Position numbers and translations under genes: made by a program. Below the pieces are notes generated by a model that was not told where the DNA came from, searched no databases, and worked only from the letters and a program-made list of their open reading frames with translations. A stretch of DNA of 45,457 nt from a virus, in IMG/VR virus record IMGVR_UViG_3300020463_001463, positions 1-45,457 of that record. The stretch is one strand, 5' to 3'. Below are positions 4,371-45,121 of the stretch, piece by piece (within the stretch, counting starts at the first letter, position 1; each line of letters opens with the position of its first letter).

Positions 4371-4928
4371 TTATGGAAAGTCAGGCCCTTCGTACACTTC
4401 GTGTGGAGGTACCCTCATGGTATTAACTATATTTAGGTCCAGTGGCTGTCCATCACGAACATATGCCAAATCAATTAAAGTAGTTGCACCTATAACAGTT
4501 GCACCTGTTTGTTCAATTAATTGTTTGGTAGCCATTACACTGCCTCCTGTAGCTATTAGATCATCTACTATGACACATCTATCAACATGCCCTAACAATC
4601 CTGTTTGTAATGTTAGTGTTGCTTCTCCATATTCTAAAGCATAACTTTGTTCTAACAGTTCTCCAGGATACTTTGCACCTTTTTTGCGTACCATTATAAA
4701 AGGCAAACCCATTTCATATGCAATTATACTACCCATTATAAAACCTCGGCTTTCAATACCAACAATATGTGTTGGAGTTTCATCACCAAAAGTATATTTT
4801 GTTTTGGTAATAAGTTGATGCATAGCTTCCAAAAACTTAGGTCCGGCAAACAAACTATTAAGGTCATAAAAATCAACACCCGGCACAGGATAGTCTGGTA
4901 CTGTTCTAATGTAGTCTTTAAGATTCAT
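4371..4928 (-). CDS. apt: Adenine phosphoribosyltransferase
   Basis: Apt joins adenine to PRPP to give AMP, a purine salvage step in the cytoplasm. The 185-residue protein has the family N-terminus (LKDYIRTVPDYPVPGVDFYD), the ESRGFIMG loop (59-66), RKKGAKYPGE, and the PRPP-binding motif CVIVDDLIATGGS (118-130). Length is normal (170-185). ATG start at 4928, overlapped by the end of the small membrane protein upstream. With thymidine kinase and a second phosphoribosyltransferase close by, it forms a nucleotide salvage set that would recycle bases from degraded host DNA. Confidence 0.93.
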   Translation of the reverse strand: MNLKDYIRTVPDYPVPGVDFYDLNSLFAGPKFLEAMHQLITKTKYTFGDETPTHIVGIESRGFIMGSIIAYEMGLPFIMVRKKGAKYPGELLEQSYALEYGEATLTLQTGLLGHVDRCVIVDDLIATGGSVMATKQLIEQTGATVIGATTLIDLAYVRDGQPLDLNIVNTMRVPPHEVYEGPDFP

Positions 4929-6642: not shown

Positions 6643-6800
6643 GTTTCTTTTTTCTTTCTGCCACGGCTACCTGCTTTGTAGATGTAAGTTATCTCATCTG
6701 GATCTGTTTTAGCTTCGGCTTCACATACTGTAATTTTGTTATGCTTTAGCCATTCTTCAATAGCTTTGGCATCTTCATCTGTTTTAATTGCTCTAGGCAT
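6639..6800 (-). CDS. Small basic-tailed protein, 53 aa
   Basis: ATG 6800 overlaps the upstream stop as TAATG, with GGAG seven bases before it, so this start is preferred over an in-frame start 39 bases upstream. The product (MPRAIKTDEDAKAIEEWLK...) has a short helix, a beta-like end ITYIYKAGSRG, and a basic tail RGRKKKET. The family is unknown. Confidence 0.65.
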   Translation of the reverse strand: MPRAIKTDEDAKAIEEWLKHNKITVCEAEAKTDPDEITYIYKAGSRGRKKKET

Positions 6801-7264
6801 TAATATACTCCTACGTTTTCCCAAGGATAAACTAACCAAACGTCTTCCTCAGTTTTATTAACTTCATGCACATGATAACTTACATCACCAAAATCACTAG
6901 CAATGTTTTCTGTTAATGTTGCGAACTTTACCTTGTGTAATATATTTTCTAACATCCAATCATTCTTTATCCATTCGAATGTAGCACCTGTATCATTGAT
7001 GTCATCTACAATAAGTATATTCTTTTCTTGAACTAGTTCACTTAACCAAAAGTCTTTGTCAACTCTATCATCATTTCTGAAACTTACTTTCATTGCTTCA
7101 CAAGGAACATCCAACATATTACTAATAATAGTAGCAGGAATATTACCACCTCTTGTTAGACCAACAATATAATCTGGTCTCCAGTTGTTGTTATACATTT
7201 GTAATACAATACTACTACACATGTTTTCAACGTCTTGCCAACTATAATAATGCTTCTTAATCAC
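6800..7264 (-). CDS. Purine-type phosphoribosyltransferase
   Basis: The 154-residue protein has the type I phosphoribosyltransferase fold: DYIVGLTRGGNIPA (31-44) and the PRPP motif ILIVDDINDTGAT (83-95). It looks like a xanthine or hypoxanthine-guanine phosphoribosyltransferase; the substrate cannot be fixed from motifs. It would make GMP, XMP or IMP from the free base and PRPP. The start is GTG at 7264, overlapping the upstream stop by 8 bases. It complements Apt in the same transcript. Confidence 0.85.
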   Translation of the reverse strand: MIKKHYYSWQDVENMCSSIVLQMYNNNWRPDYIVGLTRGGNIPATIISNMLDVPCEAMKVSFRNDDRVDKDFWLSELVQEKNILIVDDINDTGATFEWIKNDWMLENILHKVKFATLTENIASDFGDVSYHVHEVNKTEEDVWLVYPWENVGVY

Positions 7265-7505: not shown

Positions 7506-7776
7506 ATGTTTCCCTCATCTTATCTGCTATTAAAATTTCTCTATACAACTCCTGATAGGCGTCATATGCTTCTTTAAGCTCAGGGTACTTGTCTTCCAAC
7601 TTCTGATCTCTTGGTAATAATAACATAGATGAGTGTAGCTTGTCAAGTTCATTTAGTATGTTTCTATCTTTTACAACAAGATTTTTTGAAAGCATTACAT
7701 TGTCTTCGTCGGTAACAATACTACCGCCATAAACATCACTGGTATGTCTAGTGGTATAGCCTTTGTATTTCTTCAT
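7498..7776 (-). CDS. Small protein, 92 aa, unknown
   Basis: Start chosen at ATG 7776, with a G-rich stretch (GGGGG) about eight bases upstream; a GTG at 7809 would add 11 residues and overlap the upstream stop. The product begins MKKYKGYTTRHTSDVYGG and then forms one long charged helix (about 40-90). It may be a small coiled-coil protein. No family recognised. Confidence 0.6.
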   Translation of the reverse strand: MKKYKGYTTRHTSDVYGGSIVTDEDNVMLSKNLVVKDRNILNELDKLHSSMLLLPRDQKLEDKYPELKEAYDAYQELYREILIADKMRETYE

Positions 7777-7799
7777 GGTTGGTATGCCCCCAAATAGCA

Positions 7800-8816
7800 C
7801 TAATCCCACGCCTTGTATCGGTGTGCTTTAAAGCAACTGTTTTGTGCTCCGGTTATAAATTCGTTCAATGGGCTTGGATATTCTTCAAACCACGGGATAA
7901 CATATTCCCATACTGTTTCTCCTTCTGGTGTAACTTCAAACAATCTACCAAAGGCACTTTCACAAATAAATGTGTTGCCATTCCATAAACGTTGTACACT
8001 GCCCATATAAGGACTAAAGAAACTAGGAGGCATATCATCCACATAACTCCATATTTGTTCTTTAGTTGCTAAATCAAATTCTACAATTCTACTGTGATGT
8101 ACACCAGGTGGTCTAATATTTCCATTGCAAAATGCAATTACTGTACCGGATGTAGTAATAACTGGACAATGTTGTTGTGCAACATCGGGCCACTGCTTTT
8201 TCCATACAACTTCTTTTGTAGCTCTATCTACTCCAATAATACCACTTGTGTTACGCAAACTCAAATAGATAGTATGACCAGATAAACACACTCCGTTAAT
8301 CATGGGCCAATGATTGTCGGGCATACCTTCGTGTACTGGAAACTCTTCTTCTGTAATATGTTCCCATGCACACCATTCCCATACAACATCACCGTTACGG
8401 TCTACCATACGCACAATGTCACTGAATCGTCCGTCTTTATATTCAGCGGCGGCAACATATAACAATCCACCATCTAGCCATTGTGCATCGTGGTGTGCAT
8501 AAGGATCTTCATATTCCCAAACTATTTCACTGTCTTTTGTAGCTTCCATAAAGTGACCACCATGCCAAATATCCCAAGGTGGATAAAGATCAACACTGGT
8601 GTTGTGACTTCCGTTATAACCTAAGTTACCATTACCTAGCAACACTGCATCTCTGCCTGGTCTAACAGGCATGTTCCATTCGTGTACTACTTCACCGCCA
8701 TCATCAATGAGTGGTATACGTCCGCCTCCTGTTTGTGGTGCAAATAGTGTATACCCACCTGCTGTTTTATTATCCCAATGAGTTAGACCTAACTTTCTAC
8801 GAGCTATTGTTGTCAC
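7800..8816 (-). CDS. Arylsulfotransferase (ASST)-like beta-propeller protein
   Basis: The 338-residue protein resembles the arylsulfotransferase propeller family: GGYTLFAPQTGGGRIPLID, repeated blade ends of the form (V/I)-W-E-(Y/W) such as EVVHEW, EIVWEYED, DVVWEW and TVWEYV, and central histidines in HHDAQWL and GVHHSRIVEFD. ASST moves sulfate between phenols in the periplasm. Here no signal peptide is visible, so the protein is probably cytoplasmic or virion-borne, and the enzymatic role is unproven. The start is GTG 8816 because a strong GGAGG lies six bases upstream; a TTG at 8846 has no such site. It overlaps the oxygenase gene by 20 bases. Confidence 0.78.
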   Translation of the reverse strand: MTTIARRKLGLTHWDNKTAGGYTLFAPQTGGGRIPLIDDGGEVVHEWNMPVRPGRDAVLLGNGNLGYNGSHNTSVDLYPPWDIWHGGHFMEATKDSEIVWEYEDPYAHHDAQWLDGGLLYVAAAEYKDGRFSDIVRMVDRNGDVVWEWCAWEHITEEEFPVHEGMPDNHWPMINGVCLSGHTIYLSLRNTSGIIGVDRATKEVVWKKQWPDVAQQHCPVITTSGTVIAFCNGNIRPPGVHHSRIVEFDLATKEQIWSYVDDMPPSFFSPYMGSVQRLWNGNTFICESAFGRLFEVTPEGETVWEYVIPWFEEYPSPLNEFITGAQNSCFKAHRYKAWD

Positions 8817-9690
8817 TTTTTTCCTCCAAATTTTTGTTTTTGCCAAACTTCATCATTAGATGTTCACCTGATGTTGTACCATCTACTTCTACTTCATAGT
8901 TGGGTGCATGAAAGTATACTACACTCATACGTCTTGATTCACTTCCCACAGGAGGGTTTGTAACTCTATGTAGTGTACTACGCCATTCTGGGTTCCAACG
9001 TGGCATTAGATCACCTAAGTTTACAATAAATGTATAAGGCAACGGCTTTACATCATGCCATTCATCATCTAGTCCCATTACTTGTAAGCCGCCGGGCTTG
9101 TCTTCTGTAAGCAATAGTGTAAGTGTTCCAAAGTCTGTGTGCATACCTGCTCTGATACCTTCAGGCGATACATCTTGCTTTGGATAGTTATGTGTGATTA
9201 GTGTACTAATTGGTTTATCGCTACGCAATGGACAATGCATTAAGTCAAGTATACGTTGTGATAAGTCAACACACATTTTGTCGTAATCTCTATACACTTT
9301 TTCAAACTCTTCATTAGGATAAATGTTTGGAGCAAAGTGTCCTTGGGCACCTTGTGTTTCATAGTACGGATCACCTGGTACTGCTTCTTGTCCTGTTGTG
9401 AAACTTTCTTTCTCGTCAGGTTTAGCATCTTCAATGCCAAGTGTTTTAGCAAGTGCTTTGGCTCTTACTGCATAGTATCCTCTACCAATATCTGCTCTAT
9501 CGAATGTATCTTTATATTCTTGTGATTGGTCAAAAAAGTCTTTACTGACACTAAACATGTCGTCAATAAGGTCATTGCTTATGCCATGTCCACTTACAAC
9601 AATAAAGCCCCATTTCTTACAAGCTTCATCTATCTCTTTATGTACAACATCAGGATCTCTGCTGATGTCAATTACTGGTACTCCGTCCAT
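8797..9690 (-). CDS. 2-oxoglutarate/Fe(II) oxygenase, isopenicillin N synthase family
   Basis: Non-heme iron oxygenase of 297 residues. The N-terminal DIOX_N-like part shows VPVIDIS (4-10) and EACKKWGFIVVSGHG (22-36). The core carries the iron ligands H184-x-D186 (HTDFGTLTLLL) and H241 (LHRVT), and the 2-oxoglutarate arginine in SRRMSVVYF. All catalytic residues are present. The substrate is unknown; relatives hydroxylate or desaturate small molecules. It directly follows the ABC permease gene (ATG 9690 next to the permease stop), so it may act on the imported compound; that is inference. Confidence 0.9.
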   Translation of the reverse strand: MDGVPVIDISRDPDVVHKEIDEACKKWGFIVVSGHGISNDLIDDMFSVSKDFFDQSQEYKDTFDRADIGRGYYAVRAKALAKTLGIEDAKPDEKESFTTGQEAVPGDPYYETQGAQGHFAPNIYPNEEFEKVYRDYDKMCVDLSQRILDLMHCPLRSDKPISTLITHNYPKQDVSPEGIRAGMHTDFGTLTLLLTEDKPGGLQVMGLDDEWHDVKPLPYTFIVNLGDLMPRWNPEWRSTLHRVTNPPVGSESRRMSVVYFHAPNYEVEVDGTTSGEHLMMKFGKNKNLEEKSDNNSS

Positions 9691-10464
9691 TTAACTCCCT
9701 TTCATTTCTGATTCATGCCATTTACGCATCAACAGCCAACCGATGGTCTGTATTGTCATAAAAAATGCAAAGCCCAAGCCTGTCGCTGTTAATATAAGCG
9801 CCATAACTAATGCTGTTTCTAAGTTTGCTTGTGCATAGATAATTTGTATTCCTAATCCGCCTTCTTCACTGCCACTGCCAATAATGAACTCGCCTACAAT
9901 AGCACCGATAACACTAAGTCCTGCACTAATTTTTAGACCAGCAAAAATATTTGGTATTGCGGCAGGAAACCTAAGTTTATAAAATGTACTAAATTTGTTT
10001 GTTTTGTGATAGTTAAACATCTCAACTAGTGTTGTGTTTGTACTTTTTAGTCCTAGCAGTGTATTGTTTATGATAGGAAATAGTGCAATAATAACACTTA
10101 TAATGATTATACTTTTAATCTCAAATCCAAACCACAGTACAATTAGTGGTGCGACAGCAACAATAGGCACTGTCTGTAGTAGTATCGCATATGGATATAA
10201 ACTACGTTCTAGTATTTTACTTAGGCTCATTACAGTTGCTACACTAATACCTATCAGTGCCGCAATAATATATCCTACAAAAGCCGCTGTAAATGTTTGT
10301 GCTAGTCCAATCATAATAATGTCAAAGTCTGCAATAAATTGTTGTGCGACAGCCCAAGGTGTAGGCAATAAAAATGCCATATCATATATTAACGCACCAA
10401 TGTGCCAACTGCCTAAAAATAGTACAAGTATTAGTACAGGTGGTAATATCTTTTTTATCTCCAT
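9691..10464 (-). CDS. ABC importer permease, NitT/TauT/ThiX type
   Basis: Inner-membrane permease of 257 residues with about six membrane segments of the binding-protein-dependent transport family. The EAA loop that docks on the ATPase is visible near residues 165-185 (KLRFPAAIPNIFAGLKIS, then G-L-S-V-I-G-A-I-V-G-E). FLLPTPWAV near residue 31 is typical of the SsuC/TauC/ThiX branch. It overlaps the ATPase gene by 10 bases and belongs with the binding protein further upstream. Length is normal (250-260) and there is no sign of decay. Confidence 0.92.
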   Translation of the reverse strand: MEIKKILPPVLILVLFLGSWHIGALIYDMAFLLPTPWAVAQQFIADFDIIMIGLAQTFTAAFVGYIIAALIGISVATVMSLSKILERSLYPYAILLQTVPIVAVAPLIVLWFGFEIKSIIIISVIIALFPIINNTLLGLKSTNTTLVEMFNYHKTNKFSTFYKLRFPAAIPNIFAGLKISAGLSVIGAIVGEFIIGSGSEEGGLGIQIIYAQANLETALVMALILTATGLGFAFFMTIQTIGWLLMRKWHESEMKGS

Positions 10465-11159
10465 GTTCTTAACTTTCCTGATATATCATTTACCAGTTTT
10501 GTAAACTGTGGTTTTGTTCTAATGTCTGGTGTTCGTTTTTTAAATGGTATATCTACAATGTCTGTAATTTTACCTGGACGTGGACTCATGACGACAACTC
10601 TATTACTTAGATAAACTGCCTCCGCTATGTTGTGTGTTACAAGTATAGCAGTGAACTTGTCTCTAGTCCACATGTTGTGTAATTCTTCTTGCAGGACTTC
10701 TCTTGTTAATTCGTCTACTGCACTCAGTGGCTCATCTAGCAATATGTATTCTGGATCTAATACTAAACTTCTTGCTAGGCTTAATCGCATCTTCATACCG
10801 CCACTTAGTTGATGCGGGTAACTGTTTTCAAAGCCGTTTAGTCCTACTTGTCGTAGTGCAACACTAGCTTTGGCTCGTTTGTTGTCAGTGCCTTCTAGTT
10901 CCATTAATAGTTCTACATTGCCTTGCACTGTACGCCAAGGTAACAATGCACTGTCTTGGAATACAAAGGCACCTTTACTAGGTTTAGTAACACTTCCGTC
11001 TGTTTCAACTAGGTCAGCAATCACACGAAGTAGTGTAGATTTGCCACAGCCTGAAGGTCCAACAATACTGATGAACTCGCCTGTGGCAATGTCTAAGTTT
11101 ACTTCTGCTAGTGCTTGAACTTCGTCAAAGTGTTTACTTACTCTGCTTACTTCAATCAT
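10455..11159 (-). CDS. ABC importer ATP-binding protein, NitT/TauT type
   Basis: ATPase of 234 residues. Visible: Walker A GPSGCGKST (34-42), the Q-loop FVFQDSALLPWRTV, the signature LSGGMKMRLSLARSL, Walker B YILLDEPLSAVDELT and the switch histidine in LVTHNIAEAV. The QDSALLPW Q-loop and the A-V-D-x-x-T-R D-loop are typical of SsuB/TauB/ThiZ proteins. ATG at 11159, 12 bases after the binding-protein stop. Every catalytic motif is intact, so the transporter should be active. Confidence 0.94.
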   Translation of the reverse strand: MIEVSRVSKHFDEVQALAEVNLDIATGEFISIVGPSGCGKSTLLRVIADLVETDGSVTKPSKGAFVFQDSALLPWRTVQGNVELLMELEGTDNKRAKASVALRQVGLNGFENSYPHQLSGGMKMRLSLARSLVLDPEYILLDEPLSAVDELTREVLQEELHNMWTRDKFTAILVTHNIAEAVYLSNRVVVMSPRPGKITDIVDIPFKKRTPDIRTKPQFTKLVNDISGKLRTWR

Positions 11160-11171
11160 AGCTGATTCTTA

Positions 11172-12107
11172 TCACTCGCAGTTGCCCATAAAGGATAGAT
11201 TGAAACTACTTGATGAATCAAAGTCAGCTGGTACAACATCAACTTCTTTTAGTTGTTCTGCTAGTTCTGCCCAACGGTCACTTTTCATACAACCTAGTTT
11301 GCTATAGTCCTTAGGAAGAAATTCTTCTTTCATAAGTCCGATAGCATTCATGTGTACTGCTGGTGTGACTTTTTTACTTTTACCTAAGATCAAATCCATA
11401 GTTGGTTTTGGGTCGTTAAGCGATTTAACAAAAGCCGCTCTAAGTCTATCTACAACTTCTTGTACTAGTTCTGGGTTTTCGTCAATCATTTTTTGTGTAG
11501 TAAACAGTGTGCTATATGGTTTATAGCCCAAGTCTGCTACTTTAATTTGCTCGTTAGCAATACCTTTATCGTCAAGTCTTGCTGGAAGAAAAATTGAATA
11601 TCCTTGTTGGAACATTTCAGGTGATTTTCCAAATAGAGCTAGATCACCTTTTAGTGGGAATTCGTCAGCACTAATGCCGTACTCTTTCTTGATCCACTTC
11701 CAGTATGTAATACCTGGAACAACGGCAAAACGTCTGCCGTCTAAATCCTGCACAGTTTTAATACCTTGGTTTGGATGGAATACTAATGTATAAGGAACAT
11801 GGTCCAAGTTAGCAAATACTGCTACCAGTCCTGCACCTTTTGAATTAGCCATCATTACTGAATCTGACCCATTAAGTCCAAACTCAACTTGCCCTGAGGC
11901 TACCAGATTTGCTGTTTTAACACCAGGGCCACCTGCCTTAATATTAATTTTCAAATCGTGATTATCGTTATCTAACATTGCTTGCCAGAAAACACTTTGG
12001 TTACCTTGAGGGAACCAGTCCATAAGAAGTGTTACTTCTTTTGCTTGTACAGTAGTTGCGAATAGTAATGCTACTACACTAACTGCCAAAGATTTTAATA
12101 GTTTCAT
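11172..12107 (-). CDS. Periplasmic substrate-binding protein, NMT1/THI5-like
   Basis: Binding protein of 311 residues with a clear signal peptide (MKLLKSLAVSVVALLFATTV then Q-A, likely cut after A22), so it acts in the periplasm. The mature start TLLMDWFPQGNQSVFWQAML matches the NMT1/THI5-like group (usual pattern L-D-W-x-P-x-x-x-H), followed by V-A-S-G-Q-V-E-F-G-L-N. Close relatives bind pyrimidine precursors of thiamine, riboflavin, sulfonates or nitrate; the exact ligand cannot be read, but the D-W-F-P motif favours a thiamine-precursor or similar heterocycle. It is the first gene of the ABC unit, with AGGAG ahead of ATG 12107 and a terminator further upstream. Confidence 0.9.
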   Translation of the reverse strand: MKLLKSLAVSVVALLFATTVQAKEVTLLMDWFPQGNQSVFWQAMLDNDNHDLKINIKAGGPGVKTANLVASGQVEFGLNGSDSVMMANSKGAGLVAVFANLDHVPYTLVFHPNQGIKTVQDLDGRRFAVVPGITYWKWIKKEYGISADEFPLKGDLALFGKSPEMFQQGYSIFLPARLDDKGIANEQIKVADLGYKPYSTLFTTQKMIDENPELVQEVVDRLRAAFVKSLNDPKPTMDLILGKSKKVTPAVHMNAIGLMKEEFLPKDYSKLGCMKSDRWAELAEQLKEVDVVPADFDSSSSFNLSFMGNCE

Positions 12108-12166: not shown

Positions 12167-12190
12167 AAAAAGCGCCTTATGGCGCTTTTT
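12167..12190 (-). terminator. Rho-independent terminator after folE
   Basis: On the minus strand the folE stop is followed by AAAAAGCGCC, loop ATAA, GGCGCTTTTT: a 10-bp perfect stem whose right arm ends in a T run. The GCGCC core is a strong stem. Because the A and T runs are symmetric it could work in both directions. It closes the clamp-dpdA-folE unit and isolates the ABC transporter genes. Confidence 0.88.
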
Positions 12191-12193
12191 ACA

Positions 12194-12886
12194 TTATCTT
12201 ACTGTTGGTGCAAACTCTTGTTGCAGTTTTACATTATCAATAAATTCTTTCCTCACGTCAGGTTCATCTTTAAATGCACCTCTAAGCACTGTAGTTTGTG
12301 TTAAACTACTGTGTGCTCTGATGCCTCTGTTTTCACAACAACCATGTGTTGCCTGAACATAGACACCAACGTGATCTGTTCCAGTGATCTCTTGTATCTT
12401 GTTTGCAATCATTACATTAAGTTCTTCTTGTAATGTTCCACGTCTTGCACACCATTGTGCTATTCGTGTGTACTTGCTCAGTCCCAATAGTTTAGGACCT
12501 GCAATAATACCAATGTATGCTACACCTTTTACTGTTTGGTGGTGATGCGAACATAAACTTGTAAGTTCACTACGCACAACCAACATACCTTCATAACCGC
12601 CTTCAATGTAGTTAGGAAATGCACTAGGGTTAGGCATTGGATCATAACGACCAGACATAATCTCATTGATATACATCTTAGCCATTCGTCTTGCAGTATC
12701 CATACTGTTAGGATCAGTCTCTGTGTCAATCACTAGACTTTGTAATACATTTTCAAAAGCCGGCATTGCCTCTTCGATGAGTAACTGCTTTTCGCCTTCT
12801 TCCATGTAGTCGCTAATATTATCATTAGCCCATGCCCTAGCACCTGCGGCTTGAACACGCTCTTTAATTTTTTGGGAAATTTTCAT
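12194..12886 (-). CDS. folE: GTP cyclohydrolase I
   Basis: Opens GTP to dihydroneopterin triphosphate, the first step of both folate and 7-deazaguanine synthesis. The 230-residue protein has the catalytic core: RSELTSLCSHHHQT with zinc cysteine C112 and histidines 114-116, GVAYIGIIAGPKLLGLSKYTRI, and the second zinc cysteine in HGCCENRGIR (C183/C184). CSHHH replaces the CEHH of E. coli FolE, a variant I also know from other FolE proteins. ATG 12886 with GGAG nine bases ahead. It is the last gene before the terminator. With QueD-like, QueE and DpdA it points to DNA modification rather than folate. Confidence 0.94.
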   Translation of the reverse strand: MKISQKIKERVQAAGARAWANDNISDYMEEGEKQLLIEEAMPAFENVLQSLVIDTETDPNSMDTARRMAKMYINEIMSGRYDPMPNPSAFPNYIEGGYEGMLVVRSELTSLCSHHHQTVKGVAYIGIIAGPKLLGLSKYTRIAQWCARRGTLQEELNVMIANKIQEITGTDHVGVYVQATHGCCENRGIRAHSSLTQTTVLRGAFKDEPDVRKEFIDNVKLQQEFAPTVR

Positions 12887-21094: not shown

Positions 21095-23794
21095 TTAGTT
21101 CCAATCGAATAAACTATCGAATGTAGTTTTATCTTCAGCTTTTGCAAGATCCCAATTCATTACACCTAATAAGTTTTCAATCTTTTTAGTAATAATACCC
21201 TGCTCCATTGTATCTGTATCAAATGGAAGTTCTTTATACCATTCGGGCAAACGAGTTTCGTCTGTAGGATAACCAATACTAGTAAAGCCCATTGGATTAT
21301 CTTTTAGTTTACAAACAATGGTCTTCATACCATCCATAATTTCCATACTATACTTGTCACCATTCATTCTACGCATTCTGTTGTAGTTGATAGCCGCTCT
21401 AACATGACCTGGCATATTGCTTTTGCCTTTATATACTTCGTCTCTAGTTTTTGGATCAATCATATACTCACTGTTATAGTAGTGTGTAAGTTTATTCACA
21501 CGTTTAGGTGTACCTTTAAGCCAAGCTGGCATATTTCTAAACTCACTACGAAACTCAATAATGCGTTCAATGATCTCATCTTCTTTAGATCCTGTTAGTG
21601 TTTTTAGTAACAGTTCACTCAAGAAGTCTTGCATAAATGCTGGCGTGTCTGACCTTTTGAGGTCCAGGCCCATTGCTTTTATTTTGCCTGGCTTATCATC
21701 TTTATCTTCTCTATGACCTTCATTGTCATACACTAAAATAGCATAACGTTTCTTTGTTATGTATATACCAGCAGTTGCACTTACTTCTCTAGCCGCCGCG
21801 ATTATTTCGCCTTGCTCTCTGTTTTGAACGTTGTGTGCAGTTGCCATATAATCTGGAAATGTTTCGTTGGCTTGTTCGCATACAGTTTCATAAAGTTCTG
21901 TTACTCTGTCTTTGTCCCATGCAAACTCACCACTTTCTATTTGCGATTTAAATACAGGGTAAGCACTAAAGTATACACTATCAGTATCGCCATAGATAAT
22001 ACTATCTCCAATATGATCATAAATTCCTGTGAAAAGTTCATTTACCTTTGCTCCCATGTGTCTTGCAATAGTTCTACCTGTGAGTGTTGTGCTTTGTCCC
22101 ATGCGAGGATCATTAAATCTACTACCAGGATTCAACAACGCACCATATAAACTATTCAAGTTAATCTTTTTAACCAGCTGACGCTTGTCCCAATATGCAG
22201 TTTTTTCCACATCACCTGCACTTTGATGTTCACGCATATTCTTTTGCAGTATTTTACGTTCAGCATACCAGCGTTCTAATAGTCCAGGAATAATACCTTT
22301 CTTAGTTTGATCAAGTATTGTACCATTACTACTCAATACCCAAGGTTGATCACTTTCAAATATTATTTGATACAGTTCTTTACCTGTACCTTGCAGTTCT
22401 TCACCATTCTCAAAGTCAATGTACAACAATGTTTCGTCATTCTTTTCAATAACAAGTTCATACTCTGGACAAGCAAACTTGCCTTCCCATGCACTTGCAA
22501 CTATCCATTTGTGTTCATTTAACATTGGCACAGTTAGTGTGTGTCTAATTTGACCTACAATAGTTTCTGTACTCATGTTCAAGCTACGCAAGATACTAGG
22601 ATATAGACTGTTCAAGTCCATACTGCCTATCCATTCATGAAAGCCTTTCTTTGGAGTTGCGACATAAGCACCTGCCGCCGTACATGTTTGCGGATAATGT
22701 TTTTGTGTTTTGTCATGTTGTTTATCTGGACAAATAAGTCCTCTGCTATGTGCTTCATTGAGAATAGCTTGATCTGTAACTGCAACTGCACCCATTGTTG
22801 TTTGTACAAGAACTGTGTTGTCATGTGCAATAACATTTGCTAAGTCAATAAACTGTAGCTTCTTATCCATGCGTACCAGCAAGTCAACATCTTGTCTTGA
22901 ATATGTAATAAATGTTTCAAAGTCGTTGTTGTACAGTTGATCCAGTGTGCCTTGGTATTCTGTTTTGCGTTCACCAAGTTCATATTCACCAATAGCATCC
23001 AAACTGTAACTGTGCATTTCATGGTATGTATACTTGCGATACAATTCCATATAATCCAAGTGCAGTCTACCCACTGTATCATATGTTTCTTGTGCTTTAC
23101 CATAACGTTCAAACTCACGTCTGTTGGGATATTTGCCCCACAAACAAAAACGTCTTGTATGCTCTTTACCAAGAACTCTTGCTATGCGATTAACCAAGTA
23201 CGGAATATCAAAGCCTTCACTGTTCCAACCACTCATTACATCTGCATCATCAATCAGTTGTAAGAATGTGTCTAGCATTTCGTCTTCTGTGTCTAGCAGG
23301 ATTGTATCTTCAAATCTATCTACAATAGTTTGTGCATCTGCTTTTGTAAGTGTCTTGGGCTTGTTTACCAAACATATAGTTTTACCTATCCAATCCAAGT
23401 GTACACTGATTGCAGTTACAGGATTAAACGGATCGCTGGGATCTGCAAAGCCTTTCTCAGGATCAAAGTCAACCTCAATATCAAAAAATGCTTGTTGTAG
23501 TTTTGGAGTGTCAGCACCCAAATAGTTATCAGCTAAACATCTAAACACAGGGTTAACATCACTTTCAAATAGCCGGTGACTGCTATACATTTTCTTTTCT
23601 TTTTTGAATTGTTTACCACTAGTAGTTACTACACGATCCAATCTGTCACCAAATATACTTTCAAACTTGCCACGACTGTCTTTGTAATAGAAAACATAAC
23701 GTGCAGGATATTCTCTGAACACACGTTTTCCGTCAACACGTTCTACAACATGTATTACATCTTTGTCTCTGTCAATAAGTGCATCGATATACAT
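21095..23794 (-). CDS. gp43: DNA polymerase, family B (T4 gp43-like)
   Basis: Replicative polymerase of 899 residues, against 898 in T4. The proofreading domain shows Exo I FFDIEVDF (103-110), Exo II SGWNSEGFDIPYL (188-200) and Exo III YSRQD (298-302). The polymerase domain shows motif A SMDLNSLYPSILR (391-403), motif B KKINLNSLYGALLN, and motif C IYGDTDSVYF. The C-terminus TTFDSLFDWN is like the T4 clamp-binding peptide (S-L-F-D-M-F). All catalytic aspartates are intact and no intein or split is seen. The gene overlaps the FNR gene as TAATG and is followed one base after its stop by the oxygenase ATG. Confidence 0.97.
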   Translation of the reverse strand: MYIDALIDRDKDVIHVVERVDGKRVFREYPARYVFYYKDSRGKFESIFGDRLDRVVTTSGKQFKKEKKMYSSHRLFESDVNPVFRCLADNYLGADTPKLQQAFFDIEVDFDPEKGFADPSDPFNPVTAISVHLDWIGKTICLVNKPKTLTKADAQTIVDRFEDTILLDTEDEMLDTFLQLIDDADVMSGWNSEGFDIPYLVNRIARVLGKEHTRRFCLWGKYPNRREFERYGKAQETYDTVGRLHLDYMELYRKYTYHEMHSYSLDAIGEYELGERKTEYQGTLDQLYNNDFETFITYSRQDVDLLVRMDKKLQFIDLANVIAHDNTVLVQTTMGAVAVTDQAILNEAHSRGLICPDKQHDKTQKHYPQTCTAAGAYVATPKKGFHEWIGSMDLNSLYPSILRSLNMSTETIVGQIRHTLTVPMLNEHKWIVASAWEGKFACPEYELVIEKNDETLLYIDFENGEELQGTGKELYQIIFESDQPWVLSSNGTILDQTKKGIIPGLLERWYAERKILQKNMREHQSAGDVEKTAYWDKRQLVKKINLNSLYGALLNPGSRFNDPRMGQSTTLTGRTIARHMGAKVNELFTGIYDHIGDSIIYGDTDSVYFSAYPVFKSQIESGEFAWDKDRVTELYETVCEQANETFPDYMATAHNVQNREQGEIIAAAREVSATAGIYITKKRYAILVYDNEGHREDKDDKPGKIKAMGLDLKRSDTPAFMQDFLSELLLKTLTGSKEDEIIERIIEFRSEFRNMPAWLKGTPKRVNKLTHYYNSEYMIDPKTRDEVYKGKSNMPGHVRAAINYNRMRRMNGDKYSMEIMDGMKTIVCKLKDNPMGFTSIGYPTDETRLPEWYKELPFDTDTMEQGIITKKIENLLGVMNWDLAKAEDKTTFDSLFDWN

Positions 23795-28116: not shown

Positions 28117-28220
28117 TTACAGTGTTTACACTCACACCCCGTACAAACATCATTAGCACAACTTTCACACTGTTTATTACAGTGACAGTTACACCCACAT
28201 TTTTCACATTTACATTCCAT
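28113..28220 (-). CDS. Metallothionein-like cysteine-rich miniprotein, 35 aa
   Basis: A 35-residue frame with 12 cysteines, 2 histidines, no tyrosine, phenylalanine, tryptophan, leucine or isoleucine. Cysteines come as CKC, CEKC, CGC, CNCHC, CESC, CTGC, CEC and a final KHCK, the pattern and composition of a metallothionein: a peptide that wraps around Zn, Cu or Cd clusters. The frame is supported by AGGAAA six bases ahead of ATG 28220, by TAATG overlap with the gene before and ATGA overlap with the gene after. Known metallothionein families differ in exact spacing, so this may be a new type. It would act in the cytoplasm or virion, perhaps storing or buffering metal. Confidence 0.72.
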   Translation of the reverse strand: MECKCEKCGCNCHCNKQCESCANDVCTGCECKHCK

Positions 28221-29143
28221 TACGATTTCCTTGTTGTATTAGAAACGTTTTTGGCTTTCCCTTTGCGATTTTTGTTGGGGTCTTCTCTACGTTTTTTGTT
28301 TACTGCTTTTGCAATAGCTTTTTTGCCGCCTTTGGCTCTTAGACTTGCGGCTCTACTTTTACTTAGACATTTAGGCTTTCCTTCGCCTTTTTTACTGTCT
28401 CCGCATTTACCTATACGTTCGCCTTTTGAATTGTAACGATCCCAGCCGCCTCCGCCAGCACCGCCTTTTTTACCTTTGCCAAACCAGGCTTTAAGATCTT
28501 CATTAACTACATGTCCGCATACAATCGAATGTCCTTCTGCATAAAAAGGATTCTCAGGATCTGCATCACCAGACTCATCTGCCCACCAGTCCAATGAATA
28601 TTTCATACCACGCTCGAACATGTCTTTCATACCAAGTATGCGTTTTTCGTATTCTTCTTTAGTTGGTTCAGCTCTGCCTGCTACAACATCTAATACAAAG
28701 TTTAGTGTAGTTGCATTTGCAGTAAGGCTACCACAACGTGCGCCTACTTCATTTTTAAGATGGTCAATTAGTATACTGCCACTACAATTAGCAAGTTCGT
28801 CACTTAGATCTTCTGGAACTTCTATATCAACATAACAGTATACAAAGTCATAGTGTGGTGCTGGTGATCCATGTAGTATGTATTCATCTCTGCACACAAT
28901 ACGCTTGAATCCGTCTTTATTGTGCCATACAGTTTGCTCATCTGTCATTTCGTCAGGAGCACCAAATGTTTTTTCTAAATGTTTACTGTATTCTGCTGGC
29001 TCTTCATGATCCCATGCACTGTACTTACCACCAACATCTTCTCGCTTAACACAGTTAGGCACACGTTTTCCGAACATAGTTTTCATGCCCTTCTTCTCGT
29101 AACCTTTCCAACATTTTTCTGTTAAGATTTCTTCTATCAGCAT
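28220..29143 (-). CDS. Putative head-associated protein with basic Cys-containing tail, 307 aa
   Basis: Begins with a leader MLIEEILTE (L-T-E at 7-9) followed by a basic Cys-pair module from C11 to C31 (CWKGYEKKGMKTMFGKR is the core). The middle (about 40-215) is an acidic globular domain of unknown type. The C-terminal 80 residues are glycine then lysine/arginine rich: GGAGGGGWDRYNSKGER, K-C-G-D-S-K-K, P-K-C-L-S-K-S-R-A-A-S-L-R, ending in K-K-R-R-E-D-P-N. Such tails are seen in phage proteins carried in the head and probably bind DNA. DUF5872-like; tentative. Confidence 0.7.
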   Translation of the reverse strand: MLIEEILTEKCWKGYEKKGMKTMFGKRVPNCVKREDVGGKYSAWDHEEPAEYSKHLEKTFGAPDEMTDEQTVWHNKDGFKRIVCRDEYILHGSPAPHYDFVYCYVDIEVPEDLSDELANCSGSILIDHLKNEVGARCGSLTANATTLNFVLDVVAGRAEPTKEEYEKRILGMKDMFERGMKYSLDWWADESGDADPENPFYAEGHSIVCGHVVNEDLKAWFGKGKKGGAGGGGWDRYNSKGERIGKCGDSKKGEGKPKCLSKSRAASLRAKGGKKAIAKAVNKKRREDPNKNRKGKAKNVSNTTRKS

Positions 29144-29144
29144 G

Positions 29145-29333
29145 TTACTTCTTCTTGCTGTTGCCCCAGTTCTTAGCGCCTTTCTTACGACACTGAACTA
29201 GTGCTCCACTTGCATATGCACTGGGCCATACTTTATAACGTGATTTTACTTTGTGATAGCAAGCATCTTTTTTGCCTGCTTTTTCATCAAATTGTTCTTC
29301 GGTTAGTTCTTCGTATACTTCATTTAGTTTCAT
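29145..29333 (-). CDS. Small basic protein with leader, 62 aa
   Basis: Leader MKLNEVYEELTE (L-T-E at 10-12) then a basic module: C25-Y-H-K-V-K-S-R-Y-K-V-W-P, S-A-Y-A-S-G-A-L-V-Q-C48-R-K, ending GAKNWGNSKKK. I recognise this Cys-pair module from marine T4-like phages, where it recurs at the ends of structural proteins. It would follow the leader model: targeted to the prohead, cleaved, and bound to packaged DNA. ATG 29333 with the upstream stop three bases ahead. Confidence 0.75.
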   Translation of the reverse strand: MKLNEVYEELTEEQFDEKAGKKDACYHKVKSRYKVWPSAYASGALVQCRKKGAKNWGNSKKK

Positions 29334-29336
29334 AGC

Positions 29337-30941
29337 TTAACCAATCATACTATACATTTTATCTAACACACTTAAAAAGCCTGCTTTTGTTTGAATTCTA
29401 TCTACAATCTTTGCTTGTGTTTCTTCTTTTACTTTATCAAAAACTTGTAAGAAAATACTAGCTGTGGTCATATCAACTTTCATTGATCCATCTGCAAATT
29501 TCACTGACATTGCACTTTTATCTTTAACAATATCTCTTAGCTTGTCTATGTTTTCTTTTACTAGTATGTTGTGATCTAAATTTTCACGTTCATGCATCTT
29601 ACGAAGCATTGTAGCAACTGCATTTACATCAACATCTTCTTTTACAAAACTTTTAATAAATGCAATTTGCTCATTAACTTGCTTCCAATTTTTATATGAA
29701 CGATCTAGTGTTGCTCTTGTATATTCTGCAACTACTGTGTTAGCATTTGCACTTTCATCTAGTTTTAGTGCATCACGCATTGTATTTAGGTCTACACTGT
29801 TGGCATGCATTGCCGCCATGTGTTTTTTGTATTTCTCTGTACCTTTTTTGTGTGGGCTTTTTCCTTCTCTAGTAGTACTAAGATTAGACGAAGGATATAA
29901 ACTTTGATAGCGTTTAGCGAAATTTTTTCTAAAGTTTTGTGTATTAGACATTGGAGCTCGTTTTGTTTGTTGTAGTGGTCGTAATGTAAAATCTTCTTTC
30001 ATTCTACCTGTGTCAGGTTTTGGGTCGTCTAATGCTTTGAATTCTGCATATGTGAGATACATGTCTGTGTCTCTGTCATAGTAAGCACCTTCTTTTGGAT
30101 CATAGTATATGGGTTTTCCAACTCTTGTTTGGAATGGACCTTCTAATCCTTGCATTGGTGTATAACGTTCTTTGTCAATATCAGGCATCACATAGTAACC
30201 TTCAAACGGCATATCACCTTCCATTTCGTCGACCATTCTATCAATGATATCTTCAAAGTCATCATCTGGATGCAGTCCGTATTCAGCTGATGTATCATTG
30301 TACATATCTTGAATGTACTTTTCTTCTGGACCATCTTGTGTCAACATTTTGTAAATTGCATCATGCGGATCATCTGAGCTCATTATTCGTGCATGAAGAT
30401 CGCTCATTGAACCTTCATCATCGAATAAGTCCATTTGTGCTGGCTTTACGACTTTTGGTGTAGGTAATTTGTTTTTATCTTTTAATCTATTCTGTGCATC
30501 AAAACTTGATCTATTGCGTAATGTCGATAGACTCTTGCCTTCATTCATTCTAAACTTAATGCGTGAATACATCACATCAATTAGTAGTGGATCATTATCT
30601 TTGTCAGCATACTTGCTGATAATTGCATCTTTACTCATGCCTGCTTTAATGTCAGCATAAATCTTATCTTCCAAGCTCTTGCCTTCTGTTTCCATTCTTT
30701 CCATTGCACTTTGCATAAGCAAACGTTTAAGGTCTTCTGGGCTATAATTATCTCTAGGATCAATACCTCTAGTAGCTCCGGTTTTAGGGTCGCTACCAAT
30801 ATTAATAGTAGGTCTTGGTTTAGGACGTGGAACTTTAGTAGGTCTAGTTTTAGGTACAGGTATATCCGAATCCAATGCTTGTTGAACAGCGGCATCTATA
30901 GATCCTTTGTCAACTTCGTTTACTTTTTTCTTTTGTTCCAT
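29337..30941 (-). CDS. Putative head-associated structural protein, 534 aa
   Basis: Long, hydrophilic, low in hydrophobic core. It has a proline/lysine-rich start (PVPKTRPTKVPRPKPRPT at 29-46), a central acidic region (about 175-265), and a basic motif KSPHKKGTEKYKKHMAAMHA (about 363-382) that I know from marine-phage head proteins. The C-terminal 150 residues look helical. It begins MEQKKKVNEV, so it lacks the usual leader or carries a variant. A perfect TATAAATA late promoter lies 30 bases upstream of ATG 30941 with AGGAAGAG as ribosome site, which fits a late virion gene. No enzyme motif seen. Confidence 0.75.
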   Translation of the reverse strand: MEQKKKVNEVDKGSIDAAVQQALDSDIPVPKTRPTKVPRPKPRPTINIGSDPKTGATRGIDPRDNYSPEDLKRLLMQSAMERMETEGKSLEDKIYADIKAGMSKDAIISKYADKDNDPLLIDVMYSRIKFRMNEGKSLSTLRNRSSFDAQNRLKDKNKLPTPKVVKPAQMDLFDDEGSMSDLHARIMSSDDPHDAIYKMLTQDGPEEKYIQDMYNDTSAEYGLHPDDDFEDIIDRMVDEMEGDMPFEGYYVMPDIDKERYTPMQGLEGPFQTRVGKPIYYDPKEGAYYDRDTDMYLTYAEFKALDDPKPDTGRMKEDFTLRPLQQTKRAPMSNTQNFRKNFAKRYQSLYPSSNLSTTREGKSPHKKGTEKYKKHMAAMHANSVDLNTMRDALKLDESANANTVVAEYTRATLDRSYKNWKQVNEQIAFIKSFVKEDVDVNAVATMLRKMHERENLDHNILVKENIDKLRDIVKDKSAMSVKFADGSMKVDMTTASIFLQVFDKVKEETQAKIVDRIQTKAGFLSVLDKMYSMIG

Positions 30942-30970
30942 AACTCTCTTCCTAATTTGTCCGTTTGTAA

Positions 30971-30978
30971 TATTTATA
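30971..30978 (-). promoter_or_regulatory. T4-type late promoter (TATAAATA)
   Basis: The minus strand has the exact T4 late promoter octamer TATAAATA, read by gp55-gp33-gp45-dependent RNA polymerase in T4. A start about six bases further would give a leader of about 23 bases with AGGAAGAG before ATG 30941. The octamer overlaps the stop codon of the preceding gene. The presence of a gp45-like clamp in this genome agrees with clamp-dependent late transcription. Confidence 0.7.
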
Positions 30979-31246
30979 CACCACTCATTGATCGTGCCAT
31001 GCCGCCTCGATAATCCTTCATTGTAATTGGCGTTACTTTTATTTGACTTTGAGGCATTTGCATATCAGGTCCTGTGCCAGCTCCTGGTTGGGCTTGAGGT
31101 TGCTGTTGCTGTTTCGCTTTCGTCTTCGCTTTTTTGTTGTGTTCAGGATGTCCTGGTGGAGGAGTATTTGATCCGCCAACCTTTTTTTGCATAGCTTTGG
31201 ATAGTCCTGGGTCAATCTTATCTAAATTTAATTCGTGTAATCTCAT
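30974..31246 (-). CDS. Low-complexity protein with MRLHEL leader, 90 aa
   Basis: Starts MRLHELNLDKIDPGLSKAM; then a proline, lysine and glutamine-rich stretch (KAKTKAKQQQQPQAQPGAG) and the end PITMKDYRGGMARSMSGV. Likely disordered and basic. The leader is close at DNA level to those at 43402 and 43785. ATGA overlap with the 1497-residue gene. Possibly an internal head protein. Confidence 0.65.
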   Translation of the reverse strand: MRLHELNLDKIDPGLSKAMQKKVGGSNTPPPGHPEHNKKAKTKAKQQQQPQAQPGAGTGPDMQMPQSQIKVTPITMKDYRGGMARSMSGV

Positions 31247-34200
31247 TGTCCTGCTCCTCCTGTAAAGCCCATTTGTTTCTGCATGCCGCCTTTGTACTTT
31301 TCTAAGTCCAGCGGATCTTTGTATTTGGCAGGATTAAATCTAAGCATATCTTTAAAATCTGTACTATCATCTTTGCTACCTAATCCACCTTTTGGCCTAG
31401 GATTTTTATCTTGTTGCGTATCTGTTTGTCTAGTTTTACCTTTTTTAGCTTTAAACGTTTTGGTTGCTACAGGACCTGTTAATCCCATTGCAATATCAGC
31501 TTGACTTTGATTAGTTGTACTAGGATCAACTTGCTGTGCGGTATCAGTACTAGTGTCAGTACTAGTATCGTTAGGATTGTTTTGTTGTCCTGTCATATTA
31601 GTTGTTTGACTCGGTGAAGTAATTCCTGACGGGATTTCTGTATCAGTTTCGTTATCTTGATTTGCTACTTTGTCCAGTTTATCCTGATTTTGTTTTAGTT
31701 TATCTTTTGCTTGTTGTGCTCTAGTTTCTGCATCAGTGCCTGCGGCTTTTTCCTGGTCTGCTTGATTACGTTTAGCAATATCGTCTAGCTCTTTTTTCTG
31801 ACTCGGACTTAGTGTTTTAGGATCAATAAAGTTTACAGGACCACCTGCTTCAGGATCTGTAACAGGTACTTCTAGTTTAGATGGTTCCTTTATTGTAACT
31901 GGTTCATCTACACCTATATCAAGCTCTGGAGAATCCATACTACCCGGTTGTTCCGGCTGTACAGGAGCAGTTGTAGTAACAGTAACCTTAGGTATCTCCG
32001 GTGCTAATTCATCTGGCTTAGGTGATTTATCTTTTTTATCTGGTTGTTGTAGTTCGTCTGGTTTTTTAGTTTTGACTTTAGGATCTTGCGTAGGCTCAAC
32101 ATCAATATCTAGTTCGTCATTGCCCTGTGGTATTTCTGGCTGTGTAACTGTAGTACTAACATCTGGTGGTGCAGGTGAACCTGTATCAAGGTCTATATTA
32201 TTAGCATCTGCTTCAGCATCTGCTTTTGCTTGTGCTTCGGCATCTGCTTTTGCTTTGTCTAGTACTCGCTTTCGTCTAGCGTCTAGTTCAGCTTGCCCAT
32301 CGCCTCTGCCACTACCAGTTACTGGATCTGGAGCACTTGTACTAGGCAAGTCTAATGCATCTGGTCTACTGGACGGTGTAATTGGTGGATTCATTCTCAA
32401 ACTACCTGCTTGATTAGCCGGTAATCCTTTTAAGAATCTATCAATTTTAATTGCATTTTTAGTAGCAAGAACTTCTTTATATTGATCTTGTACTGATTGA
32501 GGTACTGTAACATCTTTATACTGTTGATCATCAGGTTTAGCTTTACTAGGATCGAAAAACTTAGGTTCAGCTGGTGGTGTATTTTCAGTATCAGTATCAT
32601 CTATATCACTAACACCTTGTGCAACTCCACCTTCTTGATCCACTGGTTCTCCGTTGTTAGCAATATTTGTTACGTTATTGGTATTTGCTTGTTTTTGTTT
32701 TTCTTTTGTAGCTGTACGCAATGCTTCGTCGTCTGCATCAAACTCATCTACTTCAGGTGATGTAGGTTTTACAGGCTTTGTTGTATCTATAGTAGAGTCT
32801 TTCCACTTTTTCATAAGTGCTTTATGATTTTGGTGGTTAGTTGTGCCTCTAGTTCCATCTTCTTTTACTTCTGCCCACATACCGCCAACACCGTTAGGGA
32901 CACCTTGCCAAGCATAGATTTTTCCATCTAATTCAACTTGTACGCCTGTTGGTGGTCGGTCCATTTGTGGTTGAGGTAGTGACTGTGGTGGGTTTTGTTT
33001 TGCTTCGTCATTGAGTTTTTCTTTTACTTCTGCTGGACGTTGTTCATACTTTGCTAAATCTTCTTGACTAATAATATCATTGCTTATACCCGGATATGCT
33101 TTCTCTAATGACTTGAGCATTGCTTTAACTGCTATAGGATCCATATCTCTTGTAGAAATTTCTAGCTTTGTGCTTGCAACAATATGTGCTCTACTTAAAC
33201 TGTGATTCTCTTCATTAGCAGGATTAAGTTCTGGAGAAGTAGGTGCCTCAGTCATCACTTCAATGCCATCAACATCAGCATTGTCTTTTTTAACTTGCTC
33301 TAGTTTTTCTTTTTCAACTTCTCTCGCCGCTTGGTCAGCTTTAAACTTCTCGTCAAAATATTCTCTGCCTTTTTTGATACTACCATCTTGTAAATGTGTT
33401 TCTCCGTATTCAGCGTCCCATGCTTTAACATCATTATCGAAACTCTTTCTAAGATTTTTAATTTTTGATTCAGCATTTGTTATTTGTAATGCTTGAGCGT
33501 TTTGATAATATTCTCCTCTAGCTTCTAAGTTTTCTCTTGTGGGCCTTGGATTATCAGGGTTGTTTGGATCTGCATCTGGGTTCCTACTATCCCAAGCACG
33601 TTGTTGTTGTGCAAGGTTACGTTCAGCGGCTTTGTTTGCAATATCAATTTGTTGTTGAGCACCGTTGATTTCAAATTTTATATCAGCATATTCTTCACTG
33701 TTTAAATCTGGACGAGAAAATGTATTGTCTTGTAAGTTTTCTAGGTCTTCTGGTATAGTATCATTATTTCTTCTACTATTAAACAGTATCTGGTTTCTAG
33801 TCCAAGTCTGATTTCCTCTTTCTTTGTCACCAGTAAATGTTACTTTGCCTTCTTTCCAATATTGTAATTTTTGTTGTTCATCTAAATCACTAAAGATAGG
33901 AGCTTCTAGCGTACTACGTCCTTTTACTCTTACATCAATTTTTCTTACATCTTCAATTCTTTTAAGTACACTATTGATACTACCTTTGCTATCAATACCT
34001 AATAGTGCCGCTATACGTCTTACTTCATTTTTGTCACCTACGTTTACAACAACAATGCCTTCATCTGGGTCAAGTTCATTATCATCTAATATTGAAATAA
34101 GCTCAATGTCTTTGTCATTCTGCTGTGCTTCTTTTACTGTAATTTTAACTGTTTTGCCGTCTTTGGTAATAGTGTATTGACCTCTTCTGTTTACTCTAGC

Positions 34201-35736: not shown

Positions 35737-35737
35737 T

Positions 35738-36193
35738 TTACATCTCTTCTGGCATGTCGTCAACTACTACTGGTGGTACTTCAGGATAACCATTAATCTC
35801 TAAGTATTCCATATAGTGTTTAACTGCGCCAATGTAATCACATGCTTTTGTAATCTTTGCCTGTACCCAAGGCTCTAAGTTATCAGTATCGTTAATCATA
35901 CCATGTAGCTGTACACTGTACTTGCTGAGTTTGTATAGTTGACTTTTTGCCATCCAACCATCTTCGTCAGTTGAATCAAGTACACCTTCAAACAATTCAC
36001 TGGTATATAACACAGGCTCTTTACCTTCTTTAAGTTCTGGTTTGTGCTTATTCATCCAAAGTTTTGCGAGATCAATGTCTTCGAATACTTTGCGTTCTAC
36101 ACCGTTTACGTCCAAAACTTTATACTGAGAACCTTCTTTTACTAGCTTAGGTTTAGCTACAGTTTTTTCAGTTGATATTTTTTCCAATCTCAT
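35738..36193 (-). CDS. Putative structural protein, 151 aa
   Basis: Starts MRLEKISTEK (leader-like but without L-x-E). The second half, DGWMAKSQLYKLSKYSVQLH followed by LEPWVQAKITKACDYIGAVK, is a helical module I associate with T4-like cyanophage and pelagiphage virion proteins. ATG 36193, ATGA overlap with the 61-residue gene upstream. Function unknown. Confidence 0.7.
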   Translation of the reverse strand: MRLEKISTEKTVAKPKLVKEGSQYKVLDVNGVERKVFEDIDLAKLWMNKHKPELKEGKEPVLYTSELFEGVLDSTDEDGWMAKSQLYKLSKYSVQLHGMINDTDNLEPWVQAKITKACDYIGAVKHYMEYLEINGYPEVPPVVVDDMPEEM

Positions 36194-37296: not shown

Positions 37297-37508
37297 TCAC
37301 CTTCTCCGTCGTATTCTTTGTAATCTTTGTTAGTTGTATCAGTGTCAACACGTTTGCGAGTATCATCTTCAAATAAACTGGCGGCAACGAATCCCATTGC
37401 GGCTAACATAGGTACAACATATACCATTTTATCAGTTAGATAAGCAACTATGTAAGTTGGAACTAGTACTACTGTTCCTCTTACTAATGCTTTTTTCAAT
37501 GAATTCAT
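37293..37508 (-). CDS. Small membrane protein, 71 aa
   Basis: Two hydrophobic segments (LVRGTVVLVPTYIVAYLTD and VYVVPMLAAMGFVAASLF) and an acidic tail. The start is uncertain: ATG 37508 (taken here), ATG 37523 and ATG 37544 are in frame, and all lie inside the end of the radical SAM gene, which runs to 37432. An overlap of 77-113 bases is unusual in this window. Coupled to the glycosyltransferase by ATGA. Confidence 0.55.
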   Translation of the reverse strand: MNSLKKALVRGTVVLVPTYIVAYLTDKMVYVVPMLAAMGFVAASLFEDDTRKRVDTDTTNKDYKEYDGEGE

Positions 37509-43402: not shown

Positions 43403-43785
43403 TATAAGTTTCCTCTGAATGTATTAGTTGTATTCAGCTTAGTACTGCCTTTGGGTTTTGTTGTAGTTGTTGTAATTTTAGCATTAACACTAGGAAATCT
43501 TGTTACTTTGCTACCTTTGTCAGTTCTAGTTGTTTGTGTATAACCGCCGCCACTAAAGTCAGTTGTCATTGATGCATTATATGATGCATCTTTATTTGTT
43601 CTAGCTTTGTCAAAAGCGGCACTAGTACCAGGAATAATCTCATCAGCATCTTTGTCTAATGATTTTTTATCCCATCCAGAACCTAATTGTTTTTGATAAA
43701 AAGGACTAACCTTGTCTCCATCTGGCTGATACTCTGGAGCACCTTTTACCATTTTGTAGCCTTTTTCTAATTCGTATAATCTCAT
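43402..43785 (-). CDS. Low-complexity protein with MRLYEL leader, 127 aa
   Basis: Starts MRLYELEKGYKMVKGAPEY. The rest is short of hydrophobic residues, rich in T, S, K and G (TDFSGGGYTQTTRTDKGSK, AKITTTTTKPKGSTKLN), like the region 280-400 of the 1270-residue protein. Possibly disordered or beta-rich, part of the head-internal set. Overlaps the lysin as TAATG. Confidence 0.65.
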   Translation of the reverse strand: MRLYELEKGYKMVKGAPEYQPDGDKVSPFYQKQLGSGWDKKSLDKDADEIIPGTSAAFDKARTNKDASYNASMTTDFSGGGYTQTTRTDKGSKVTRFPSVNAKITTTTTKPKGSTKLNTTNTFRGNL

Positions 43786-43793
43786 GGTCTTTC

Positions 43794-45116: not shown

Positions 45117-45121
45117 GTTCT

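Follow-up and report, generated by a model that had tools for sequence, protein, structure and literature searches.

A conserved ABC importer operon with an ASST-like partner enzyme in phage genomes, and its possible link to nucleobase salvage

Results

A complete ABC importer on a viral contig

We analyzed an IMG/VR virus record of 45,457 bases (hereafter the window), in which three importer genes lie intact on the minus strand. The features of the module and its surroundings are as follows:

4371..4928, minus strand: adenine phosphoribosyltransferase (167 against a cut-off of 125)
6800..7264, minus strand: xanthine/hypoxanthine-type phosphoribosyltransferase-like protein (XPRT-like), a recurrent neighbor, below the curated XPRT cut-off
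7800..8816, minus strand: arylsulfotransferase-like (ASST-like) beta-propeller (PF05935), predicted cytosolic, the constant partner; GTG start at 8816 with a GGAGG ribosome site
8797..9690, minus strand: 2OG-Fe(II) oxygenase of the DIOX_N/2OG-FeII_Oxy type, a facultative partner; HTD at 184 and H241 present
9691..10464, minus strand: ABC permease (PF00528), 257 residues
10455..11159, minus strand: ABC ATPase (PF00005) with the full motif set, 234 residues
11172..12107, minus strand: substrate-binding protein (SBP), NMT1/THI5-like (PF09084), predicted periplasmic, with a Sec signal peptide, 311 residues
12167..12190, no strand assigned: intrinsic-terminator-like hairpin with a T-tail between folE and the operon, from a sequence scan
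12194..12886, minus strand: GTP cyclohydrolase I (FolE) by family models, just upstream and a neighbor in part of the relatives
21095..23794, minus strand: T4-type family B DNA polymerase by homology, a phage hallmark on the same contig

The SBP scores 79.1 bits against the Pfam NMT1 model (cut-off 20.5), in agreement with the NMT1/THI5 group named in the first-pass annotation. Its N-terminus has the features of a Sec-type signal peptide, including the hydrophobic run LAVSVVALLFAT and AQA-K. The ATPase (ABC_tran, 96.6 bits) carries the Walker A motif GPSGCGKST, the Q-loop VFQ, the signature LSGG, LLDEP, and THN, and the permease (BPD_transp_1, 86.9 bits) has approximately six hydrophobic segments. 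The SBP and ATPase genes are spaced by 12 bp, the ATPase and permease genes overlap by 10 bp, and the 2OG oxygenase gene follows the permease gene at a distance of 0 bp. An SBP, an ATPase with all motifs, a permease with about six transmembrane segments, and a co-transcribable layout together make up a type I ABC importer, which is complete and in the normal gene order, as had been claimed; its protein families identify it as the NitT/TauT-NMT1 type. Between Walker A and the Q-loop, TauB has about 11 residues more than the phage ATPase; a Variovorax homologue (see below) is short there too, hinting at a common origin of the phage and Variovorax proteins.

The operon had also been described as isolated by a terminator, which is true of its upstream side only. 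The hairpin at 12167-12190 separates it from folE, though terminator-like sites are about as frequent in the region as in shuffled sequences (5 observed vs. 4.2). Downstream, there is no break: the 2OG oxygenase gene begins directly after the permease stop codon and the ASST-like gene starts inside the end of the oxygenase gene, so that the operon comprises at least five genes.

An ASST-like enzyme as the constant partner

The 2OG oxygenase gene does lie next to the importer, and the first-pass annotation had proposed its product as a possible processing enzyme. However, the constant partner is the ASST-like enzyme, which had not been named. This protein scores 64.4 bits against PF05935 (cut-off 24.2) and is modeled as a beta-propeller with a pLDDT of 80. 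Residues H226 and R198 (numbered on the ORF 7800-8846) align with His436 and Arg374 of AssT (3elq), of which we take His436 to be the sulfated nucleophile, and both are invariant in 19 sequences from phage and bacterial members. The best solved relatives are Cpz4 (9KF4), which belongs to a nucleoside-antibiotic pathway and is the nearest, and E. coli AssT (3ELQ). Both share the fold and the catalytic His/Arg columns with the phage protein, whereas the latter, known from its sequence and model, is shorter and only about 14–21% identical in fold alignments. We found no hydrophobic N-terminal segment in the ASST-like protein, and it should therefore be cytosolic, unlike AssT, which is exported to the periplasm by means of its signal peptide.

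The ASST-like gene follows the permease gene in every contig that is long enough, usually together with the 2OG oxygenase gene. An independent scan for ASST-like proteins returned 29 viral loci, 23 of which have the importer upstream; the other six contigs are cut off within the ASST-like gene or shortly ahead of it, so the linkage between the enzyme and the importer is complete as far as it is visible. The viral ASST-like proteins form a single clade with full support.

Recurrence in phages and purifying selection

The polymerase of the window is closest to those of jumbo phages such as Phosso, GAP32, and 121Q (44–49% identity), and the contig also encodes an endolysin. Following the suggestion to look for the same three genes in other viral contigs, we found 28 further IMG/VR loci (L numbers below), 27 by the SBP search and one by a profile scan. 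Gene order is retained in these 27–28 loci, with SBP identities of 62–94%. Near-identical copies from different samples occur among them (L015/L016/L027 and L021/L024), and the lineages are thus fewer than 28. SBP, ATPase, permease, and ASST-like genes appear in this order in all contigs of sufficient length (L014 is completed by L046), with extra genes inserted between them in some lineages. In L018, a gene for an SbmA/BacA-type peptide transporter (7518-8546; 388 bits vs. 24) lies between the ATPase and permease genes. A phage polymerase flanks the module in L003, L012, L015, and others, and a T4-type terminase gene stands immediately behind the ASST-like gene in L006. Judged by gene content, the carriers are large uncultivated T4-like phages.

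Codon comparisons of pairs without synonymous saturation gave dN/dS values of about 0.07–0.26; by this measure, the module is under strong purifying selection. Since the genes are found in phage genomes with hallmarks and are retained by selection, we regard the module as a phage auxiliary metabolic gene (AMG) set, which would be expressed and useful during infection.

The window is known from one assembly and a single virus record, which could raise the suspicion of a chimeric assembly or bacterial contamination. We consider the probability of either negligible: the same genes occur in 28 viral loci with a phage polymerase or terminase nearby, and both junctions recur in independent contigs, making a chimera untenable. 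It had been conceded at the outset that the three genes would lose their phage assignment if they turned up solely in a bacterial contig, which is not what we observed, given the many viral contigs. The sole match in a bacterial genome (GTDB), contig L029 (PAAV01000031.1) of a 'Chloroflexi' MAG, matches the viral L021 at 100% identity in almost all genes that the two share and hence represents a mis-binned viral sequence in the reference genome set. Matches to records labeled 'Listeria', 'Pseudomonas', and 'Acinetobacter phage' were set aside because they are distant (22–34% identity) and for the most part lack annotation. No close viral SBP of the NMT1 importer type was found in BFVD.

Nucleotide salvage genes around the module

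An XPRT-like phosphoribosyltransferase gene lies near the module in 23 of the 28 loci, and phosphoribosyltransferase domains above the cut-off are encoded in 22 of 25 viral records. Genes for PRPP synthetase (6/28 loci) and GMP reductase (7/28) also occur near the module; two GMP reductase proteins were scored and both pass the curated cut-off. Aspartate carbamoyltransferase (ATCase; two of the 28 loci) and RpiB (one) exceed their cut-offs, and OMP decarboxylase (PyrF) is present in two loci. PurA is encoded directly after the module in three contigs, L003, L046, and L080, among them the two largest SBP contigs. Upstream of the operon in L015, a 377-residue membrane protein (8273-9406), for which no Pfam or NCBIfam model gave a match, is encoded between a BMP protein and an APRT-type gene and could represent a novel transporter of nucleobases.

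As for the relatives, half of the loci (14/28) encode a second SBP, of the BMP family, upstream of the operon and usually directly adjoining it. The window itself has no BMP protein. The viral BMP protein is closest to AtzT (6PI5) and 3s99. The affinity of AtzT is 110 nM for guanine and 2.5 µM for adenine, and 3s99 was modeled with adenine (PMC6834077). The viral copies keep most of the purine contacts: Ser97, Phe98, Glu165, and Trp194 of AtzT are retained, Tyr45 is replaced by Trp and Asn220 by Asp, both as in adenine-bound 3s99, and Asn218 is replaced by Thr (His in L011). In contrast to this likeness to AtzT, a BMP-type permease (PF02653) was not found in 23 viral records, from which we infer that the BMP protein may deliver its ligand to a transporter of the host.

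Bacterial counterparts

The closest match found for the whole set is on the Variovorax paradoxus plasmid CP063167 (L031), where all four genes form one operon with identities of 42% (SBP), 54% (ATPase), 51% (permease), and 50% (ASST). Its order is ASST-SBP-ATPase-permease, in contrast to SBP-ATPase-permease-ASST in the phages, and it is accompanied by a LysR regulator and no salvage genes, unlike the phage loci. The phages probably acquired their operon in one piece from a bacterial source. FMN monooxygenases are encoded near the Variovorax locus, together with MsuE, and near a Streptomyces locus; both surroundings look sulfur-related.

In other bacteria, the ASST-like gene is joined to different transporters. 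Alloyangia, Salipiger, and Allorhizobium combine it with a different NitT-type importer and a LacI regulator, and the Salipiger locus includes an arylsulfatase. A type III polyketide synthase is encoded near the ASST-like/ABC operon of Alloyangia (L032, 5103-11910); the Cpz4 pathway also uses a type III polyketide synthase product as sulfate carrier. Its partner in Salmonella, Pantoea, and Burkholderia is an NCS2 purine/pyrimidine permease gene, although these NCS2 proteins miss the cut-off of the xanthine permease model. Salmonella STM3633-STM3632-STM3631 encode a LacI regulator, an ASST-like protein that shares 57% identity with its phage counterpart, and the NCS2 permease. The Salmonella enzyme thus also has a dedicated transporter, which is a symporter there but an ABC importer in the phages. 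A constant enzyme with a changing transporter fits an enzyme acting on the imported compound. The next-nearest bacterial SBPs, from Agrobacterium and Rhizobium (28–30% identity), are encoded in operons that also contain a genuine cytosine deaminase gene (652 bits vs. a cut-off of 403).

Other features of the phages

Many ORFs start with short, similar leaders, e.g., MRLHELTE, MKINQINEFILTE, MLIEEILTE, and MRFHEFKLTE. The regions concerned are:

28220-31246, window: leader-bearing ORFs
31243-36193, window: leader-bearing ORFs
38823-42635, window: leader-bearing ORFs
42635-45125, window: leader-bearing ORFs
8627-9754 of L007, 2432-2944 of L013, and 18506-19960 of L048: leader-bearing ORFs in relatives

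The leaders look like the capsid-targeting sequences found on internal head proteins of T4. It is therefore possible that these phages package numerous proteins, including enzyme-like ones, and inject them. A radical SAM protein with a SPASM domain is encoded at 37432-38826, in the structural-gene half of the contig. Genes for MetK (604-1689), QueE-like (1868-2824), and FolE (12194-12886) proteins in the window suggest a partial deazapurine route, for modified DNA or tRNA, plus SAM supply.

Discussion

Candidate substrates of the importer

A complete, conserved importer operon maintained by selection is present in phages, accompanied by a constant partner enzyme and surrounded by nucleotide genes. 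With modest confidence, we favor the view that it is a nucleobase-type importer coupled to salvage, where the substrate class is read from genomic context and distant relatives. The conserved module in 28 IMG/VR loci with nucleotide genes beside it points this way, as do the bacterial pairing of ASST-like genes with NCS2 permeases and the cytosine deaminase operons of the next-nearest SBPs. The nearest folds of the SBP are those of pyrimidine binders, namely ThiY, the thiamin-bound SBP 4nmy, and Thi5, ahead of TauA and SsuA, and Cpz4 adds a link to a nucleoside-antibiotic pathway. Several observations count against the nucleobase reading. NMT1 proteins bind many ligands, and the SBP model (AlphaFold, from 19 similar sequences) is mediocre, with a pLDDT of 70.7 that is too poor for reading a ligand pocket. 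The Variovorax four-gene match is situated near FMN monooxygenases and MsuE, and the catalytic His of the ASST-like protein points to sulfuryl transfer, a step that the salvage of nucleobases does not require. The window has no BMP protein, the NCS2 proteins fall below the xanthine permease cut-off, and gene adjacency is weaker evidence than in bacteria because phages often cluster nucleotide genes.

The first-pass annotation had suggested uptake of a vitamin, a pyrimidine, or a sulfonate. Curated NCBIfam models give little encouragement to the sulfur compounds. In the recommended comparison with the SsuA and TauA families, the SBP reached 45.4 bits (cut-off 163.5) and 21 bits (cut-off 304), respectively; the permease scored 70.7 vs. 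347 for SsuC and 51.9 vs. 342 for TauC, and was far below the cut-off for the nitrate permease NrtB. By blastp, the similarity of the SBP to TauA was not significant (E 0.18), and none to SsuA was found. Acquisition of organosulfur is nevertheless the strongest competitor, though in our view an unlikely one. An aryl sulfate or sulfonate would be imported, the ASST-like protein would move the sulfate in the cytosol, and the 2OG oxygenase would oxidize the remainder, providing sulfur and carbon for the cell. The retained equivalents of His436 and Arg374, the FMN monooxygenases of Variovorax and Streptomyces with MsuE in the former, the Salipiger arylsulfatase, and even the weak SsuA score of the SBP are consistent with this scheme. 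Against it stand the missed SsuA, TauA, SsuC, and TauC models, the absence of an SsuD-type monooxygenase (PF00296) from 23 viral records, the NCS2 permeases paired with ASST-like genes in Salmonella, Pantoea, and Burkholderia, and the DIOX_N type of the 2OG enzyme, which is not TauD.

Uptake of a vitamin precursor, such as the thiamine pyrimidine HMP or similar, agrees with the Pfam NMT1/THI5 assignment and with the best folds, but we judge it improbable. In 23 viral records, all possibly fragments, there was no match to the HMP-kinase family (PF08543) and none over the cut-off to TMP-synthase (PF02581), so these searches gave no neighboring thiamine genes of the kind that would place the operon in ThiXYZ, and the bacterial relatives adjoin cytosine deaminase or ASST rather than thiamine genes. 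Uptake of a vitamin, taurine, or a sulfonate thus found no backing, whereas the pyrimidine proposal comes close to the nucleobase reading. Still more improbable is a role in base modification, in which imported deazaguanine- or pterin-like compounds would feed a FolE/QueE pathway that modifies the DNA or tRNA of the phage. In the window and several relatives, the operon has FolE immediately upstream and QueE no more than 10 kb away, but neither was found beside the operon in the L009, L013, L015, L021, L023, and L028 lineages, which keep the importer.

A possible route from import to nucleotides

In the nucleobase reading, the SBP would capture a nucleobase-like heteroaromatic ring, a purine or pyrimidine that is possibly decorated, in the periplasm, and the ABC pump would bring it into the cell with ATP. 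The ASST-like enzyme and the 2OG oxygenase would modify the imported compound to make it usable. The adjacent phosphoribosyltransferases would then use PRPP, with a phage PRPP synthetase or RpiB contributing in some relatives, and PurA or GMP reductase would lead on to nucleotides for phage DNA. In nutrient-poor water, the importer might in this way supplement the usual recycling of host DNA with material from outside the cell. More tentatively, and with less than even confidence, one may envisage a closed circuit in one operon, consisting of the pump, the ASST-like/2OG pair that strips or modifies, a purine-binding scavenger, and the salvage enzymes; the ASST-like propeller would then be a new base-specific enzyme class, also in Salmonella.

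Relation to known systems and significance

The phage importer shares its Pfam families and subunit set with the NitT/TauT importers TauABC, SsuABC, and ThiXYZ, whereas its SBP has no significant blastp similarity to TauA or SsuA and misses the curated models. Phage genes that boost uptake are already a known kind of AMG, including cyanophage PstS and the 'ABC transporter' KOs of marine viromes. PstS in cyanophages is a lone SBP, in contrast to the whole importer with a partner enzyme in a conserved operon described here, and the part that appears to be new is this conserved full importer with its ASST-like partner. In aphotic viromes, KOs for ABC transporters and those for nucleotides show joint enrichment (PMC5504273), and bulk surveys report that ABC transporters as well as the synthesis of nucleotides are enriched among viruses of proteobacteria and of deep water (PMC5504273; PMC10224230). 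In the literature covered, which extended to few subscription journals and preprints, we found such bulk ABC-transporter statistics and no earlier account of a whole importer conserved together with an ASST-like enzyme.

The prevailing view is that phages make new DNA chiefly out of what the breakdown of host DNA and the metabolism of the host provide. If the nucleobase reading is true, infected cells (virocells) would also take up building blocks from outside, which would affect the turnover of dissolved nucleobases. It would further offer a testable role for a widespread, uncharacterized bacterial pair of an ASST-like protein and a transporter, including STM3632-STM3631 of Salmonella.
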